Source: an uncultured Bacteroidota bacterium (GTDB lineage: Bacteria; Bacteroidota; Bacteroidia; AKYH767-A; JABDAW01). Taken from it: DNA of 49,254 nt. A program made the position numbers and the translations under genes. The DNA is taken from positions 1 through 49,254 of the forward strand of contig CAIMUP010000139.1 in the NCBI GenBank assembly GCA_903844645.1. Direction: 5' to 3'. The first letter of the stretch is position 1. Every line of letters begins with the position of its first letter. This document shows positions 4,239 to 49,254 of the stretch, in pieces. Under the pieces are notes generated by a model. It saw nothing but the letters and a program-made list of their open reading frames with translations, was not told the origin of the DNA and ran no database searches.

Positions 4239-4299
4239 ACCATTCCTAGGTTCAAATTCTCTATTTCGATAGGTTTTTGAATACTGAAATAGGCATTTG

Positions 4300-4509
4300 C
4301 TCCATGGCGCAAACGATTTGCGCTATGGAGCAAATGATTTGCGCCATGGAGGAAATGATTTGCGCCATGGAGAAAATGATTTGAGCCATGGAGAAAATGA
4401 TTTGCGCTATGGAGGAAATGATTTGCGCCACGGAGGAAATGATTTGAGCCATGGAGCAAATGATTTGCGCTATGGAGGAAATGATTTGATCTATGGAGAA
4501 AATGGGTTT
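4300..4509. repeat. 21-bp direct-repeat array, 10 copies
   Basis: Ten head-to-tail copies, each exactly 21 bp. The conserved core is ATGGAGnAAATGATTTG with the dyads CCATGG and CAAATGATTTG. The first full copy also reads GCGCAAA-CGA-TTTGCGC. The array sits between the divergent folK and sppA promoters and is followed about 65 bp later by the sppA -7 box (TATCCTTG, 4576-4583). Copies differ at a few fixed positions. Because 21 is divisible by three, spurious open frames run through it on both strands. Confidence 0.95.
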
Positions 4510-15870: not shown

Positions 15871-16087
15871 CAGCGTTGAATTAAATAACAGGTTTCAAAA
15901 TGAAGATGGTAAGAGAAATAAACGGAATGAATCAAACGAATCTCGGGGCGGGTATCGGTCTGAATCGGATGGTTTCCGCACTCCTATATATAAGGAGTGG
16001 TTTATACCTTATTATATACCGTATTCGCCAGGCGGGGATCGGAAGGAAACAAATGATATGCAACAATGTTCTGCACAGCATCGTCGT

Positions 16088-16255
16088 AAACCATATGGTA
16101 TGCACTTTTATTATGCAGAGAAATGCAATAAACCATATGGTATGCACTTTCATTATGCAGAGAAACGCAATAAACCATATGGTATGCACTTTCATTATGC
16201 AGAGAAACGCAATAAACCATATGGTATGCACTTTCATTATGCAGAGAAACGCAAT
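16088..16255. repeat. 42-bp direct-repeat array, 4 full copies plus diverged flanks
   Basis: Four tandem 42-bp units start at 16088, 16130, 16172 and 16214. Each holds the palindrome ACCATATGGT and a TGCA pair spaced across CTTTCATTA. Diverged copies follow (ATACCATATGGTTTATCGC at 16256 and ACCAAATGGT near 16299). A TATATA palindrome (15980-15998) lies upstream. Open frames cross the array in several frames on both strands, as expected for a stop-free repeat whose length is divisible by three. The whole 15626-16389 gap holds no recognised gene. Confidence 0.93.
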
Positions 16256-16389
16256 ATACCATATGGTTTATCGCAATGCCGCGAAGGGGAACGTAGTAAA
16301 CCAAATGGTTTATACTTTCATTATGGAAAATGGAATTGCGTACCAAACTATTTTTAATACTAATCGCCAATTAATTAAATCATAACATT

Positions 16390-18077: not shown

Positions 18078-19238
18078 ATGATTACACCACACGGCGGCAT
18101 CCTGATTAATAGGATAGCCGATGAAAAACGAAAAGAGGAATTAGAAAATAAAGCCAAAGGGCTTTATAACCTCCAACTGGAAGATAGATATACTTCCGAC
18201 TTATTGATGATCGCAATCGGCGGTTTCAGCCCCCTCAAAGGATTCATGGGCAAGGCAGATGCCGAAGCAGTAATTAATAAGATGGAACTCGCCAACGGTT
18301 TGGTATGGGCTATCCCAATTTTGCTTCCGGTAAAGGATGGCAACGAGATTTCGGTAGGACAAGAAATTGCACTGACCGATGGTAACGGCACCGTCATCGC
18401 TGTAATGAATGTTACCGAGAAGTTCAGCCTGGACATGGAAAATTACACCACTAAAGTATATAAGACCAACGACCCTGCCCACCCTGGCGTGAAAGCAGTG
18501 TTGGACGGCGGCAACAACTATATAGCAGGAGATATTGAATTGGTCAATCGCCCCGTAGGAGAGAATGTTCAGGAAGAATATAAGTTAGACCCCTCCATGT
18601 CTCGCGCCGAATTCGAGAAACGCGGCTGGAAGACGATCGTAGCCTTCCAAACCCGAAACCCTATTCACCGTGCCCACGAATACCTTTTGAAATGTGCCTT
18701 GGAATCAGTGGACGGGCTGTTCATTCATCCCTTAGTCGGAGAGACTAAGTCAGATGATGTTCCCGCCATGACCCGTATGCAATGCTATCAGGTATTGATG
18801 GACAACTACTTCAACTTAAAGAATACCACTCTGGGCGTGCTGCCTGCCGCCATGCGTTATGCCGGACCGAGAGAAGCCGTTCAGCACATGATTATTAGAA
18901 AGAATTATGGGTGTACACACCTCATCATCGGCAGAGATCATGCTGGTGTAGGGAATTATTATGGAACCTACGAAGCCCAAGAATTAGTGGATACGGTTGC
19001 AGATAAACTCGGCATCGTACCCGTAAAATTTGAACATACATTCTATTGCAAGGCTTGCGGAAATATGGCATCTACGAAGACTTGTCCGCATACCTCCGAA
19101 CACCACGTTATGTTGAGTGGGACTAAGGTCAGGGACATGTTAGCCGCCAGTCAACGACCACCCGTTGAGTTCTCCCGTCCTGAAGTTGCCGATATATTAA
19201 TCGCGTGGGCAACCGGAAAGAGTGAAGTGCCTGCATAG
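18078..19238 (+). CDS. sat: Sulfate adenylyltransferase (ATP sulfurylase)
   Basis: A 386-residue single-chain ATP sulfurylase, making APS and pyrophosphate from sulfate and ATP. The nucleotide-binding motifs are QTRNPIHRAHEYL and IGRDHAGVG. The C-terminal part carries CKACGNMASTKTCPH, a cysteine/histidine cluster seen in bacterial homooligomeric forms, and MLSGTKVRDML. The product is the direct substrate of CysC encoded just before it. No heterodimeric CysD/CysN pair is present. Confidence 0.95.
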   Translation: MITPHGGILINRIADEKRKEELENKAKGLYNLQLEDRYTSDLLMIAIGGFSPLKGFMGKADAEAVINKMELANGLVWAIPILLPVKDGNEISVGQEIALTDGNGTVIAVMNVTEKFSLDMENYTTKVYKTNDPAHPGVKAVLDGGNNYIAGDIELVNRPVGENVQEEYKLDPSMSRAEFEKRGWKTIVAFQTRNPIHRAHEYLLKCALESVDGLFIHPLVGETKSDDVPAMTRMQCYQVLMDNYFNLKNTTLGVLPAAMRYAGPREAVQHMIIRKNYGCTHLIIGRDHAGVGNYYGTYEAQELVDTVADKLGIVPVKFEHTFYCKACGNMASTKTCPHTSEHHVMLSGTKVRDMLAASQRPPVEFSRPEVADILIAWATGKSEVPA

Positions 19239-19244
19239 TATTTC

Positions 19245-20078
19245 TTGATGGGGCTTGATTCACTTTTGTATTGCGCCATCCAATGTGCTATTCAGGCAGG
19301 AGAGGCAATCATGGGTGTTTATAATTCAGAGATTTTGGTGGAGTTCAAGGAAGATAACAGTCCATTGACTCTGGCAGATAAGCAAGCGAATGAAGTCATC
19401 ACAAACTTATTAAAAGAAACCCCCTACCCTATCCTTAGCGAAGAAGGAAAATCCATCCCATACTCCGAACGGAAAGACTGGGAACGCTTCTGGTTAGTGG
19501 ATCCATTGGATGGGACTAAAGAGTTCATTAAAAGGAACGGGGAATTCACCGTGAACATCGCCTTGATAGAAAACGGTGTGCCCATTCTCGGCGTTATCTA
19601 CGTGCCGGTTACGGACTGTCTTTACTTTTCAACCAAGGAGCGCGGGGCATACATCGTGAATGATCATAATCTCGACTTCGAGTTTGAATTGCAGATTAAT
19701 AACCCCGACGAACCGAACGAAATGAAGATATTAAAACATAGCGGCACGAAGCTTCCGATGAAGCACAATACTAGACCCTTCACCGCGGTTGCCAGTCGGT
19801 CGCATCTCTCTGCCGAAACCGAATCTTTCATCAATACTTTGAAAGAAAAGCATGGACAAGTTGAGCTGATTTCTTCCGGTAGTTCCCTCAAGCTCTGCAT
19901 TGTGGCAGAAGGCAAGGCGGATGTCTATCCTCGCTTAGCCCCAACGATGGAATGGGATACCGCTGCCGGTCATGCCATCGCGGAAGCTGCAGGAAAGCAA
20001 GTGTTGGATTATACAACGGGCATGCCACTGACTTATAACAAAGAAAATTTATTAAACCCCTCCTTCATCGTACAATAA
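19245..20078 (+). CDS. cysQ: 3'(2'),5'-bisphosphate nucleotidase
   Basis: 277 residues, inositol-monophosphatase superfamily. The metal-binding motifs are present: SEEGK for the first acid, WLVDPLDGTKEFI for the DxxDGT loop and MEWDTAAGHAIAEAAG for WDxAAxxAI. It removes the 3'-phosphate from PAP, the by-product of PAPS-using enzymes, preventing feedback toxicity. It begins 6 nt after sat, which links it to the PAPS made by the first two genes. Confidence 0.94.
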   Translation: MMGLDSLLYCAIQCAIQAGEAIMGVYNSEILVEFKEDNSPLTLADKQANEVITNLLKETPYPILSEEGKSIPYSERKDWERFWLVDPLDGTKEFIKRNGEFTVNIALIENGVPILGVIYVPVTDCLYFSTKERGAYIVNDHNLDFEFELQINNPDEPNEMKILKHSGTKLPMKHNTRPFTAVASRSHLSAETESFINTLKEKHGQVELISSGSSLKLCIVAEGKADVYPRLAPTMEWDTAAGHAIAEAAGKQVLDYTTGMPLTYNKENLLNPSFIVQ

Positions 20079-20090
20079 TAACCTTAAACC

Positions 20091-20762
20091 ATGAACAGAA
20101 TATTCAAAGCGATTATCCGAAGAATCAAATCCTTGTTCCTATCCTCCACCGCCAAACGCCACGGCTTGGTGGGGCAACCGGAATTGTGGAAAATCAAACG
20201 CGATTTCCAGATCAATTACCTGCAAGCGGTCGGCTTAAAGCCCCATCATTACCTGGTGGATATTGGTTGCGGAACGCTGCGGGGCGGCATTCCGTTGATC
20301 GCTTACTTAGAACCTAAACATTATTACGGTATCGAGTTCCGCGACTTTGTTTTGGAGGAGGGAAGGAAGGAATTAAAGGAAAATAACCTCGAAAACAAAG
20401 CCCCCGTTCTGTTGGTTTCAAAAGATTTGAACACCTTGGATATGGATAACAAGTTCGACTACCTGTGGGCGTTCTCGGTGATGATTCACATGAAGGATGA
20501 GATTGCCGATGCCTGCCTTTCGATGGTCAGCAAGCACCTAAAATCGGGCGGAAGCTACTATGCCAATGTCAATATCGGTGAATGGGCAGAGGGTAACTGG
20601 GAAGGGTTCCCGGTGGTCTGTCGCAGCCTCCAATTTTATCAAACAATGGCTGCAAAATACAACCTCTTGGTGGAAGATGTTGACGATTTGAAATCGTTAG
20701 GACACGATACCGGCATCGAAAAGCAAGACAGCCAACGGATGCTTCGGTTTTATAAGTCATAA
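20091..20762 (+). CDS. Class I SAM-dependent methyltransferase
   Basis: 223 residues with a Rossmann methyltransferase core: motif I VDIGCGTLRGGIPLIAYL, motif II around YYGIEFRDFVLEEG, and FDYLWAFSVMIHMKDE for motif IV. The N-terminal RIKSLFLSSTAKRHGLVGQPELW is typical of the small-molecule or glycan methyltransferases found with exopolysaccharide genes. It follows cysQ by 12 nt, so it is likely in the same operon. Its substrate is unknown; a sulfated or methylated cell-surface glycan is one inference. Ends at a weak terminator. Confidence 0.85.
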   Translation: MNRIFKAIIRRIKSLFLSSTAKRHGLVGQPELWKIKRDFQINYLQAVGLKPHHYLVDIGCGTLRGGIPLIAYLEPKHYYGIEFRDFVLEEGRKELKENNLENKAPVLLVSKDLNTLDMDNKFDYLWAFSVMIHMKDEIADACLSMVSKHLKSGGSYYANVNIGEWAEGNWEGFPVVCRSLQFYQTMAAKYNLLVEDVDDLKSLGHDTGIEKQDSQRMLRFYKS

Positions 20763-20798: not shown

Positions 20799-20817
20799 CA
20801 CTTTGTAATGAAATCCT

Positions 20818-21031
20818 TAAAAAGATAGCTCCTGTACCTACAGGTATTGCTCCGATACCTTGAGGTATTGCTCCTGTACCTAAAGGTATTACTCCGATAC
20901 CTACAGGTATTGCTCCGATACCTTAAGGTTTTGCTCCTGTACCTACAGGTATTGCTCCGATACCTACAGGTATTGCCCCGATACCTAAAGGTATTACTCC
21001 GATACCTACAGGTATTGGAGCTATCTTTTTA
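20818..21031. repeat. 21-bp array, 9 copies, bracketed by 15-bp perfect inverted repeats
   Basis: Nine units of exactly 21 bp run from 20828 to 21016, each with the dyad ATACCTACAGGTAT or a close variant (CCTNNAGG core). TAAAAAGATAGCTCC (20818-20832) and its exact reverse complement GGAGCTATCTTTTTA (21017-21031) enclose them; the left arm overlaps the first unit. The block ends 97 bp before the promoter at 21128 of the next orphan gene. No gene is present in 20763-21192. Confidence 0.95.
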
Positions 21032-21127
21032 CATTAATTGGGGCTGGGAACAGGTAGTCTCTAAGAAATGAAGGGGAATCGTTTGATGAATTCAGGGATT
21101 CCCAAAGTATCTAACCGATAATTAAAG

Positions 21128-21135
21128 TATCTTTG
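21128..21135 (+). promoter_or_regulatory. -7 box that sets the start of the 21193 gene
   Basis: TATCTTTG followed by CGCC. An in-frame upstream start at 21133 would lie inside this box, so the ATG at 21193 is preferred. Confidence 0.6.
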
Positions 21136-21192: not shown

Positions 21193-22110
21193 ATGAAAGA
21201 AGAAGCAAAAGTATTGCAAAGTTGCCCTACCGGAATGTACATGGGTACCGGAGAAGTGGAAGGGTATAGCATCGTGATGCTGCCCGAACAAGATGCCGTG
21301 TATTATCGCCGTAAAGATGCCTTGGAAAGTGCAGGGCGTACCGCCACGCATAATGCTTTGATGAGGGCGTATGAAGTGGCGAAAGATAAAGCTCCGAATT
21401 GTGGCGATTGTATTCCGACGATTTCGATAGTTTTATCCTCGTCAATGGAGGAAAAACCTTACACCGAGGCGACGCCGATAGCAGGTCTTCCTCACGCCGC
21501 CCAGCACATGATTCCGAAGGTAGCCCCAGGTACTAAATACAGGATTATCGTGGTTTCCGTAACCTGGACAGCCCGCTGGGTGTGTCTGCCGACCGAAGGC
21601 ATTGAATTTGCACCTAATGACGGCGTGGTACCGAGTGGACAGAAGATTTATATCGGCAATCAGGCATTCGATTTTGGTGCTCCCCAACCCTCTCGGCATA
21701 ACACCGTTTCGATGCAATCCAAGTACGATCAAGCCGATCAATCGCGCATCAAAGAAGAAACCTTTTTAAGCAGAGCCGATGAACAAATCCGTGCTATGGG
21801 ACCGCAAGTAATGGCGAAAATGTGGGCTGAATTAGAGAATGCAATCCTACACCTGCCGAAGTGCCCTCCCGAATGCAATAACAGCGATATGTCCATCACC
21901 ATCGGCTACCCGAAACCATTCTTGATTTCTTATAAAAAGAGAGTGAAAAAGATAGATACCCCGGGCTATGAAATGGTGGATGGGAATTATCAGCAAGTAA
22001 CGAAATTGGTTGACTCCACCAGTTTTGAAATTTTAGGCGAATGGAGCTGGTCGGTACAGCGGAACTGCGTGGCTAATGATAATAAAAAGAAGAAAGCAGA
22101 CGCTTCCTGA
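21193..22110 (+). CDS. Orphan protein, unknown function
   Basis: 305 residues with no signal peptide and no domain I recognise. The N-terminal half is helix then strand (YEVAKDKAPNCGDCIPTISIVLSSS), with a CGDC pair. The middle is strand-rich (KYRIIVVSVTWTARWVCLP, GQKIYIGNQAFDFG). A helical piece (MGPQVMAKMWAELENAILHLPKC) leads to CPPECNNSDMSITIGYPKPFLISYKKRVKKI and a lysine-rich tail. Several cysteines (CGDC, KCPPEC) suggest a metal site or disulfides, but this is a guess. The gene lies between two 21-bp arrays (20818-21031 and 22250-22564). Confidence 0.65.
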   Translation: MKEEAKVLQSCPTGMYMGTGEVEGYSIVMLPEQDAVYYRRKDALESAGRTATHNALMRAYEVAKDKAPNCGDCIPTISIVLSSSMEEKPYTEATPIAGLPHAAQHMIPKVAPGTKYRIIVVSVTWTARWVCLPTEGIEFAPNDGVVPSGQKIYIGNQAFDFGAPQPSRHNTVSMQSKYDQADQSRIKEETFLSRADEQIRAMGPQVMAKMWAELENAILHLPKCPPECNNSDMSITIGYPKPFLISYKKRVKKIDTPGYEMVDGNYQQVTKLVDSTSFEILGEWSWSVQRNCVANDNKKKKADAS

Positions 22111-22249
22111 AGTTGATTAGAAGAAAGACGGTTTCATCCGAGATTCCCGAGATACCGACCGCTATCTCCCGATATAGCGATTGCTATTTAGCGAAATCGG
22201 AGAAGGGATTGGGGAAGATGGAGTAGAAGATTGGGTGTGGAGCGCATTT

Positions 22250-22564
22250 ACGTTGGTGTTGAAGCCATTCACGTTAGTACAGAAGCCATTCACGTTAGTA
22301 TGGAATGCATTCATGTTAGTACAGAACCCATTTACGTTAGTACAGAATGCATTCACGTTAATACAGAATGCATTTACGTTAGTACAGAATGCATTCAGGT
22401 TACTACGGAATGCATTCAGGTTACTACGGAATGCGTTTAGTTAACTACGGAATGCATTCAGGTTACTACGGAATGCATTCAGGTTACTATGGAATGCATT
22501 CAGGTTACTACGGAATGCGTTTAGTTAACTACGGAATGCGTTTAGTTAACTACGGAATGCGTTT
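22250..22564. repeat. 21-bp direct-repeat array, 15 copies in two sub-blocks
   Basis: Fifteen exact 21-bp units plus a partial one before them. Copies 1-7 use a GTTAGTACAGAA type, and copies 8-15 a GGTTACTACGGAA type with GTTAAC variants. Most contain the perfect palindrome GAATGCATTC. Identity is higher within a block than between blocks, which points to local expansion. The array ends about 120 bp before the TAGTTTTG promoter (22686-22693) of the next gene. The rest of 22111-22727 holds no gene. Confidence 0.95.
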
Positions 22565-23399: not shown

Positions 23400-23426
23400 T
23401 AGAATATTATTGAGTCTTAAATTTTT

Positions 23427-23727
23427 CATCCTCCTTTTATGATTGCTCCCCTCTTGCGGGCAGCAATAAAAGGAGGGTGAAAGGAAAGGTCGTCCCGCTG
23501 GGACTTTGGAGCATTTGATTAATTGATTGTTTCTACCAAAAGGTCGCCCCTACGGGGCTTTAGTGTGATGAGATGTTGTTTATTTTCTACAAACATGCCA
23601 CCCCTACGGGGTTTTGAGGGTTGTTAAGGAATTTGTTTTCTATTATGATTTCGTCCCTAACGGGACTTTGTTTACATGTTTTCCTTTTATGATTGCTCCG
23701 CTCTTGCGGGCAACAATAAAAGGAGGA
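23427..23727. repeat. Cluster of REP-like palindromes (families A and C)
   Basis: Two family A hairpins (23427-23479 and 23681-23727), each CCTTTTATGATTGCTCC-(C/G)CTCTTGCGGGCA(G/A)CAATAAAAGG in outline, enclose four short palindromes of family C. The family C sites start at 23491, 23545, 23599 and 23652 (core CGCCCCTACGGGG), with successive steps of 54, 54 and 53 bp. TTTCTAC precedes the family C copies at 23545 and 23599. These look like dispersed small palindromic elements, possibly mobilised in trans. No gene is present in 23400-23863. Confidence 0.75.
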
Positions 23728-23863
23728 TGATTATTATCTTCGTCGTGCTTGAAATATTCGTTGCCTGTGGTATCAAAAACAGCATCTACACAGGTGCTCT
23801 GTATTCTCCCTTTTTCTATTTCCTGATTGATTTCTATTTTTGCCGCTTACAAAAATCTAAAAG

Positions 23864-30709: not shown

Positions 30710-30866
30710 TTTTTTCTTTTCTTTAATGTTAGAGAGTTCTTCATAAACTCATGGGTGCAAAGATACATTATTCAAAGTTGGTAATCCCACAAATCCTGAA
30801 ATTATCCTGAAAAAGGCTCCAAAAAGGCTCATTTTCGCAAAAACGACATGCTTTTACGTTGTGGCT

Positions 30867-31092
30867 CCATTCACGTGAATGGAAGGCATTCCTTCCTTCC
30901 GACAGTTTCCATTCATGTGAATGGAAGGCATTCCTTCCTTCCGACAGCACCCATTCATGTGAATGGAAGGTATTCTTTCCTTCCGACAGCTCCCATTCAT
31001 GTGAATGGAAGGCATTCCTTGCTTCCGACAACTTCCATTCACATGTCTGGAAGGCATTGTGAGGAAGGAATGCCTTCCATTCGCGTGAATGG
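30867..31092. repeat. 42-bp array, 4 copies, closed by an inverted copy
   Basis: Four 42-bp units start at 30868, 30910, 30952 and 30994. Each contains the perfect palindrome CATTCACGTGAATG (or CATTCATGTGAATG) and GGAAGGCATTCCTTCC. A diverged half copy follows at 31036. A copy in reverse orientation then sits at 31063-31092 and matches the left end (30867-30896) at 29 of 30 positions, so the array is bracketed by an inverted repeat. It lies between divergent promoters at 30758 (minus) and 31211 (plus). A TATATA element is at 31145-31162. Confidence 0.95.
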
Positions 31093-31235
31093 AAGGTTAC
31101 GGAAGTTTCGGCAGGGAATAAAAGGGGGAATTGGGAGGGGAATCACTCCTTATATATAGGGGCAATTTGTTTTTGAGGGGAATTGGGTGTATCATTAAGC
31201 ATTAATTTCCTACTTTTGCCATTCAAATAAGATTT

Positions 31236-34335: not shown

Positions 34336-34545
34336 CCCACGGAATGGTTGGGATTAACCACGGCGCGGTTAGTACTAACCACGGCGCGGTTGGGATTAAC
34401 CACGGGACGGTTGGGACTAACCACGGGACGGTTGGGACTAACCACGGGACGGTTGGGACTAACCGCGGCACGGGGGGAACCAACCACGGGACGGGGGGAA
34501 CCAACCACGGGACGGGGGGAACCAACCACGGGACGGGGGGAGGCT
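34336..34545. repeat. 21-bp direct-repeat array, 10 copies in two sub-blocks
   Basis: Ten exact 21-bp units. Copies 1-6 carry CGGTTGGGA-TAACC (one contains the perfect 14-mer GGTTAGTACTAACC at 34367-34380). Copies 7-10 switch to GACGGGGGGAACCAACC. GC-rich, unlike the other arrays. It ends about 75 bp before the TATTTTTG promoter (34619-34626) of the lptC gene. Confidence 0.95.
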
Positions 34546-41287: not shown

Positions 41288-41627
41288 CAGCCATTTGAGT
41301 TCAATGCCGGCAAAACCTAATTAGGTTTTCCAGAAACAGAAACATGTTTGCGGCAAACATGTCTCTGTTTTTCGCAAACATGTTTCTGTTTCCGGAGACT
41401 CTGACTCAATCTCGGCAAAACCTGTCTATGTTTGGCGCAAACATGTTTATGTTTCCGGAAAACCTGTTTATGTTTCCCGAAAACATAGTTAGGTTTTGTC
41501 AGGATTGAACTCAAACGGCAGGAAACATAAACATGTTTGGGGGCAAACATGTTTATGTTTTTACAAAACCTGTTTATGTTTGCCGAAAACCTAATTAGGT
41601 TTTGCCGGCATTGAACTAAAACGGCTG
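41288..41627. repeat. Complex 21-bp-unit array bracketed by 42-bp inverted repeats
   Basis: The left arm 41288-41329 and right arm 41586-41627 are reverse complements at 40 of 42 positions. Each holds the perfect palindrome AAAACCTAATTAGGTTTT and the phrase AGTTCAATGCCGGC. Between them run 21-bp units built on AAACATGTTTATGTTT (dyad AAACATGTTT), and an internal, inverted relative of the end phrase lies near 41502-41520. The array is in the divergent gap between the genes at 41154 (minus) and 41737 (plus). ACCCCTATATATATGCAG follows at 41643. No gene in 41155-41736. Confidence 0.92.
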
Positions 41628-41736
41628 GAAAGAGAACTTTTACACCCCTATATATATGCAGAAATTTTGTCATGTCATCCCATTTCCTTAATTTCGCATC
41701 TTATTAAAATATCCTGAACAAATAAATTATTGAACA

Positions 41737-45224: not shown

Positions 45225-45310
45225 AGTTTATATTTTAATATGATTTATTATTGCTATTATTGAGAACAAGCGAAGGGCTTAAATGTAAGGTTTTACATTC
45301 ACTGGTAAGT

Positions 45311-45562
45311 AAGTTCGGCAAAGTTACTCGTAAGTTCAGCAAACTTACTCGTAAGTTTGGTAAAGTTACTCGTAAGTTCAGCAAACTTACTCGTAAGTTT
45401 GGTAAAGTTACTCGTAAGTTCGGCAAAGTTACTCGTAAGTTCAGCAAACTTACTCGTAAGTTCGGTAAAGTTACTCGTAAGTTCGGCAAAGTTACTCGTA
45501 AGTTCAGCAAACTTACTCGTAAGTTCGGTAAACTTGCAAGCAAGTTCGGCAAACTTGCTAAC
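45311..45562. repeat. 21-bp direct-repeat array, 12 copies
   Basis: Twelve exact 21-bp units, AAGTTCxGCAAA(G/C)TTACTCGT in outline. Neighbouring units create the perfect dyad AACTTAC-TC-GTAAGTT. The last two copies diverge (ACTTGCAAGC, ACTTGCTAAC). A small hairpin AATGTAA/TTACATT lies just to the left at 45282-45299. Within the 44971-45946 gap the remaining stretches contain the doubtful ORF at 44982 and the palindromes at 45640-45775. Confidence 0.95.
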
Positions 45563-48906: not shown

Positions 48907-49047
48907 GTAAAAGCAAGGTCAAAAGGCATTTCCTCCCCCGAAAACTCTGTTTTCTCCCCTCTGAATTCCGTTTTTTACTCCTTATATAATGGTGTTTACA
49001 ACGTAAAAGAGGGTTTAAAAACAGAGAAAACTACTAAAGTGACGGGG

Positions 49048-49254
49048 AAGTATTACAATGTCACAGGGAAGTATTACAATGTCACAGGGAAGTACTACAA
49101 TGTTACAGGGAAGTACTACAATGTTACAGGGAAGTACTACAATGTTACAGGGAAGTATTACAATGTTACAGGGAAGTACTACAATGTTACAGGGAAGTAC
49201 TACAATGTTACAGGGAAGTACTACAATGTTACAGGGAAGTATTACAATGTTACA
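49048..49254. repeat. 21-bp direct-repeat array, at least 9.8 copies, cut by the window end
   Basis: Exact 21-bp units AAGTACTACAATGTTACAGG(G). The first two copies carry ATTAC and GTCAC variants, and the rest are almost identical, so the right part may have expanded recently. The array continues past the window. An ACTCCTTATATAATGGTG element (48977-48994) lies about 55 bp to its left. Confidence 0.95.

Follow-up and report, generated by a model that had tools for sequence, protein, structure and literature searches.

The window, that is the whole stretch of DNA that was analysed (49,254 nucleotides), is one contig (C139) of a draft genome of 3.84 Mb. Neighbouring proteins in the window, with a Por secretion tail or DUF5686, indicate a placement in the Bacteroidota, and the closest named records for the ATP sulfurylase, 90-91% identical, come from two genomes labelled uncultured 'Bacteroidetes bacterium' (JABDAW01 and CAIWCG01). 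Taken together these proteins and records place the host in an uncultured Bacteroidota genus. The locus itself is a gap between two co-directional genes, one for a methyltransferase and one further downstream, that is occupied by an array of tandem 21-bp units with an inverted repeat at its ends (Table 1). The left arm of this repeat begins 56 bp past the methyltransferase stop codon and the right arm finishes 161 bp ahead of the start of the downstream gene, which is preceded by TATCTTTG (near 21127-21134), presumably a Bacteroidota -7-like element. A search of the genome's contigs with the protein of the downstream gene returned no match. In an empty-site comparison the two flanking genes were seen to sit on different contigs in both of the congeners.

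Table 1. Genes and sequence features at the array locus (window positions)
Feature	Position	Strand	Description
ATP sulfurylase gene	18078-19238		same co-directional run as methyltransferase gene
Inositol monophosphatase gene	19245-20078		same co-directional run as methyltransferase gene
SAM-dependent methyltransferase gene	20091-20762	+	upstream of array; ends co-directional run
Left arm	20818-20832	+	TAAAAAGATAGCTCC; 10 bp outside array, 5 bp within first unit
Terminator-like hairpin, first unit	20821-20844	-	CCTGTA GG TACAGG, then AGCTATCTTT
Array	20828-21017	.	nine 21-bp units, consensus GCTCCGATACCTACAGGTATT; TRF: 9.0 copies of 21 bp
Terminator-like hairpin, last unit and right arm	20997-21030	+	CTCCGATACC TACA GGTATTGGAG, then CTATCTTTTT
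Right arm	21017-21031	+	GGAGCTATCTTTTTA; perfect inverted copy of left arm
Downstream gene	21193-22110	+	no Pfam match

A sequence-only reading of this DNA had described a nine-copy array enclosed by a perfect 15-bp inverted repeat whose left arm overlaps the first unit, and both the sequence and a script showed this to be right to the base. The locus is a tandem minisatellite within inverted-repeat ends. The arms are separated by a spacer of 184 bp and share with the array five bases on the left (GCTCC, common to arm and first unit) and one base on the right; outside the units the pairing is perfect over 10 bp, lying 0 and 4 bp from the two borders. Every unit carries the dyad ATACCTnnAGGTAT, with loop bases that differ from unit to unit. 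The same reading had held that chance pairing of the arms was very unlikely, and in this it is borne out by the window, which contains 14 perfect inverted repeats of at least 15 bp with spacers of 20-400 bp, most of them within or around arrays, against 0 in first-order Markov versions (mean of 20). It is also borne out by a stricter count across the genome sample described below, in which adjacent perfect arms of at least 10 bp outside the units, with inner ends no more than 5 bp from both borders, were found at 2/176 arrays where cross-paired flanks predict 0.034. The 14-mer of the arm has a single occurrence in the 3.84 Mb genome. The junctions, AAATCCT ahead of the left arm and CATTAATT after the right arm, show no direct repeat outside the arms and no target-site duplication. 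The sole relative of the array that was found is 72% similar and has no bracket. When folded as RNA, positions 20800-21050 gave -100.7 kcal/mol (z -8.5 on the plus strand and -5.3 on the minus strand), and the array compared with versions of itself in which the unit columns had been permuted gave a z of -4.9. Rfam yielded no credible match. Elsewhere in the window a 15-bp perfect inverted repeat (TCATCCTCCTTTTAT; 23426-23440 and 23716-23730, spacer 275 bp) lies where no array is listed.

Both borders of the array carry an outward-facing, G+C-containing hairpin with a T-tract, one on each strand. On the minus strand the left arm reads GGAGCTATCTTTTTA, which completes a hairpin and continues into a T-tract, and since the arms are inverted copies the second terminator-like site is not independent evidence. 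Each arm closes the hairpin of the outermost unit and adds a T-tract, so that the locus might act as a bidirectional intrinsic terminator, and this predicted terminator or insulator would separate the sulfurylase-phosphatase-methyltransferase run from the separately started downstream gene. This is the most concrete functional reading of the array, and we put forward a terminator function, if the array works at all, tentatively. The locus resembles known bidirectional intrinsic terminators in having a stem closed by an A-tract and a T-tract and outward T-tracts on both strands, but the classical form is one hairpin, whereas the arms here are held apart by 184 bp of tandem hairpins. The idea that the arrays are terminators in general was rejected, as neither terminator-like borders (17/352 compared with 18 when flanks were swapped) nor T-tracts were enriched at array borders genome-wide and arrays occupy every gene context, including divergent gaps (27/176).

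The wider population of arrays was surveyed in stretches totalling 1.005 Mb of the 3.84 Mb, in which 209 arrays reached the minimum length of 60 bp and were kept, and the 176 lying away from contig ends were used. A minimum period of exactly 21 bp was found in 196 of 283 tandem repeats and one of 42 bp in 32 more (228/283 together). The sampled arrays, with a median of nine copies, are intergenic: co-directional gaps hold 52 of the 176, convergent gaps 25 and divergent gaps 27, and 67 further arrays coincide with open frames, most of them spurious, since a frame stays open through repeats with a period of 21 bp. Most loci have their own unit sequence, and 70/176 arrays fall into small similarity clusters. 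The density of arrays with the exact 21-bp period is approximately 20 per 100 kb, which extrapolates from the sample to approximately 800 arrays genome-wide. The figure is 13-16 per 100 kb in two congeners and 1.9 in a sister genus (a single array in 52 kb), while in 13 other genomes of the order, each covered by a small sample, there were about none; in the samples taken, the 21-bp arrays are thus specific to the genus. A search of the literature on 21-bp intergenic arrays in Bacteroidota found nothing matching. As judged from these samples the population is unusual in comprising hundreds of intergenic arrays that have a common 21-bp period and differing, mostly dyadic units within one uncultured genus. 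These genus-wide arrays, which disperse and are renewed in situ, are of greater interest than the bracket and pose the larger question. Further arrays in the window with an exact period of 21 or 42 bp and differing units lie at 4295-4504, 16087-16325, 22245-22560, 30866-31097, 34337-34536, 41344-41631, 45309-45553 and 49030-49254.

Within this population brackets are over-represented and rare. Perfect inverted repeats of at least 14 bp that span an array, with outer ends outside it, were found at 12/176 arrays (approximately 7%), compared with 0.05 for random intervals and 0.5 for intergenic intervals. A border test that used only sequence outside the arrays, with the flanks of other arrays as its null, gave inverted matches of score at least 20 within 60 bp at 20/176 arrays where 3.5 were expected (0 of 10,000 permutations were as high); direct matches at the same threshold were enriched to about the same degree (16/176, 2.7 expected). 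In the two congeners border inverted repeats numbered 5/72 against 1.3 expected. Over-representation ranges from approximately 4- to 60-fold across the border tests and exceeds 20-fold for the spanning repeats, so that the genome-wide enrichment of inverted repeats at array borders, which had been proposed as a check on the earlier reading, is present. The inference drawn from it, that inverted repeats mark defined ends of the arrays, holds for a minority: approximately 93% of the sampled arrays have no bracket, the arms vary from locus to locus and the symmetry comes mostly from the units. The bracket is a local feature and not a general end marker of arrays, and inverted repeats as general end markers were rejected on the ground that, although enriched, they occur at only about 7% of arrays. 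Three other brackets had been named in the window. That at 41.3 kb is a 33-bp perfect inverted repeat (41298-41330 and 41585-41617), that at 30.9 kb turned out to be a 21-bp inverted repeat inside the units and that at 37.6 kb is weak, its arms of about 8 bp enclosing a repeat with two copies. The 41298-41617 bracket surrounds a 21-bp array between divergent genes and is stronger than the one studied here. Some brackets have a separate cause, as at L014:3568, where each arm is a copy of a dispersed palindrome of 52 bp. This REP/MITE-like palindrome of approximately 52 bp (AAGCATCCTGACAGGCAATCGCCCCTTCGCGATTTCCTGTCAGGATGCTTG) was observed adjoining or around arrays at L014:3508-3835, L045:10420-10480, L055:15430-15486 and L071:8600-8705.

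The best explanation of the locus is a dyadic minisatellite with a local inverted-duplication cap that is a candidate bidirectional terminator, a reading to which we give slightly less than an even chance. As to how the cap arose, inverted duplication of one array end by fold-back template switching seems to us about evenly balanced between true and false. Template switching is an established mutational process that generates perfect reverse-complement stems (PMC8794818). Units able to form hairpins could provoke fold-back copying and so yield an inverted duplicate of one end of the array, in which case the arms would not be transposon recognition ends. That the arm recurs at no other locus of the genome and that there is no target-site duplication argue that the arms are not shared transposon ends, and the uniqueness also led to the rejection of the arm as a dispersed terminal inverted repeat. 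Degenerate outer units of the array were likewise rejected as a source of the arms, which match the unit at 9/21 and 6/21 positions compared with a control mean of 6.0. No relative having this array with only one arm, and no duplication intermediate, was found. At C2:35533-35740 (L035:15533-15740) the two halves of an array are inverted copies of each other and its unique 32-bp flanks are also inverted copies; this array is a candidate snapshot of a fold-back duplication.

A different origin for the arms would be as terminal inverted repeats of a BrickBuilt-like or MITE-like non-autonomous mobile element with an internal minisatellite, which we consider unlikely. There is a described precedent in the Bacteroidota, the BrickBuilt MITE of Porphyromonas gingivalis (PMC4596501), which like the present locus is a head-to-tail minisatellite, of comparable unit size (23 nt), with short inverted-repeat ends. 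BrickBuilt has units of one sequence and 19 copies that share IS5-like 12-bp ends, some with target-site duplications (PMC4596501), whereas the array here has a period of 21, a unique arm and no target duplication and belongs to a genome whose unit sequences differ at most loci. BrickBuilt is the nearest described object, and the array, with neither terminal repeats shared among copies nor a target duplication, lies outside it; it is a capped minisatellite with a modest local feature in its bracket. Terminal inverted repeats shared among copies were found only for one pair of arrays, C14:8708-8986 (L050) and C27:7543-7779 (L060), paralogues with a common 22-bp inverted bracket around diverged units. 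The arms of this pair occur nowhere else in the genome, the left flanks are unrelated and the right-hand homology continues for more than 100 bp; a third array of the family, C109:5665-5823, matched without a bracket. On the strength of this pair a BrickBuilt-like or MITE-like minority among the arrays is conceivable. Movement is also suggested by C2:11157-11378 (L013) and L058:5768-5989 (C24; array listed at L058:5764), which are 96% identical over 222 bp and lose homology at the array borders, with unrelated flanks, as in dispersal of the array alone. Against a mobile element stand the unique arm of the present locus, its unbracketed single relative, the absence of a direct repeat outside its arms and the approximately 93% of arrays without such ends, as well as the single Y1 transposase fragment found in the genome in a search that among transposases covered Y1_Tnp. 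The earlier claim of defined ends is borne out in part by these dispersed copies, since some do lose homology at the array border, but such copies are without brackets. Arrays thus disperse, sometimes with sharp ends and usually without inverted repeats, and the best case for ends defined by inverted repeats is the C14/C27 pair and not the locus studied here.

Two other known systems bear comparison. REP/BIME and REPIN sequences resemble the arrays in being intergenic dyads that form hairpins, in their inverted pairing and in possible roles in termination or topology (PMC2817692, PMC3116915), but REPs are one sequence family dependent on a RAYT transposase (PMC2817692, PMC3116915), whereas the arrays have diverse units and are not one dispersed palindromic family. 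Mobility driven by RAYT was rejected, the genome having a single Y1_Tnp match of 80 positions. The tandem repeats of Borgs (PMC9879509) are also genome-wide, of approximately 20 nt, with many unit sequences and rapid renewal; those repeats are A-rich and perfect, and their units vary in length (PMC9879509), in contrast to the imperfect, mostly dyadic arrays of fixed 21-bp period described here.

The arms might instead be leftovers of an older 21-bp array with AAAAAGAYAGCT in its units that was overgrown by the present one, although we think this rather improbable. Units at C25:22734 and C73:4231 contain AAAAACATAGCTCC, and the end of the orthologous gene in congener G002 has a degenerate 21-bp array with AAAAAGACAGCT. 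Renewal of this kind is in keeping with the recurrence of arrays at orthologous positions, where the units were unrelated in the cases inspected and one collinear gap holds arrays in both species. At segment ends the recurrence has an odds ratio of approximately 4 (p 0.009-0.019 within 300-500 bp) and is not significant at 800 bp. The recurrence may in part reflect the conservation of long gaps between species. The similarity of the arm is weak and suggestive only (shuffle p approximately 0.04), 8.5% of other borders match some array equally well, 8/254 other arrays show a match to the arm as good as that of the orthologous array, and an older array by itself leaves the exact inverted pairing unexplained.

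The symmetry of the arrays resides in the unit. A perfect stem of at least 5 pairs is present in the unit consensus of 45/146 arrays compared with 10 for shuffled units, an array-wide inverted-repeat score of at least 12 is reached by 108/176 arrays compared with 10 after permutation of unit columns and the unit dyads were replicated in the congeners (27/72 against 3). Folding energy relative to column permutation gave a mean z of -2.5 across 71 arrays. There was no signal of mirrored unit order in 62 arrays and no compensatory covariation between unit columns in 128 arrays (5635 paired cells, 5629 expected). These two negative results place the symmetry in the unit and give no support to selection for hairpins or for a palindrome across the whole array; the symmetry was probably already present in the founding unit. 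In a search for SbcD, neither this genome (G000) nor any of 20 relatives gave a match above the curated cut-off, while control genomes were positive. A lack of SbcD may allow hairpin DNA to persist, and its loss as a sufficient cause of the arrays was rejected because relatives without arrays also have no match above the cut-off.

As 21 bp corresponds to two turns of DNA, the arrays could be helically phased, with dyadic units bound by a dimeric or nucleoid protein and the arms incidental. The prevalence of the 21- or 42-bp period despite differing units would fit such binding, as would the lower variation of unit stem columns than of loops (0.085 vs 0.149) and single changes without a strong GU bias (64/247), which give no sign of constraint at the RNA level. 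No common sequence motif was found across arrays, and we rate phased binding as a quite unlikely account of the locus. Less probable still, in our judgement, is a dedicated mechanism in this genus by which dyadic arrays with a period of exactly two helical turns are created, dispersed and renewed between genes; capped arrays would then be its completed cassettes, or ones that have moved recently, and would have defined ends. The bracketed and dispersed pairs (C14/C27 and C2/C24 (L058)) offer a direct way to test how arrays arise and move. A bracket that is a product of chance or a by-product of dyadic units is very improbable: most inverted symmetry in arrays does stem from the units, but the ten perfect pairs outside the units at both borders, at the 2/176 against 0.034 of the strict count, refute this for the outer 10 bp. 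One orthologous gap between genes holds an array in each of two species (L188:3364-3569 and L026:2276-2488), and their 21-bp units are unrelated.
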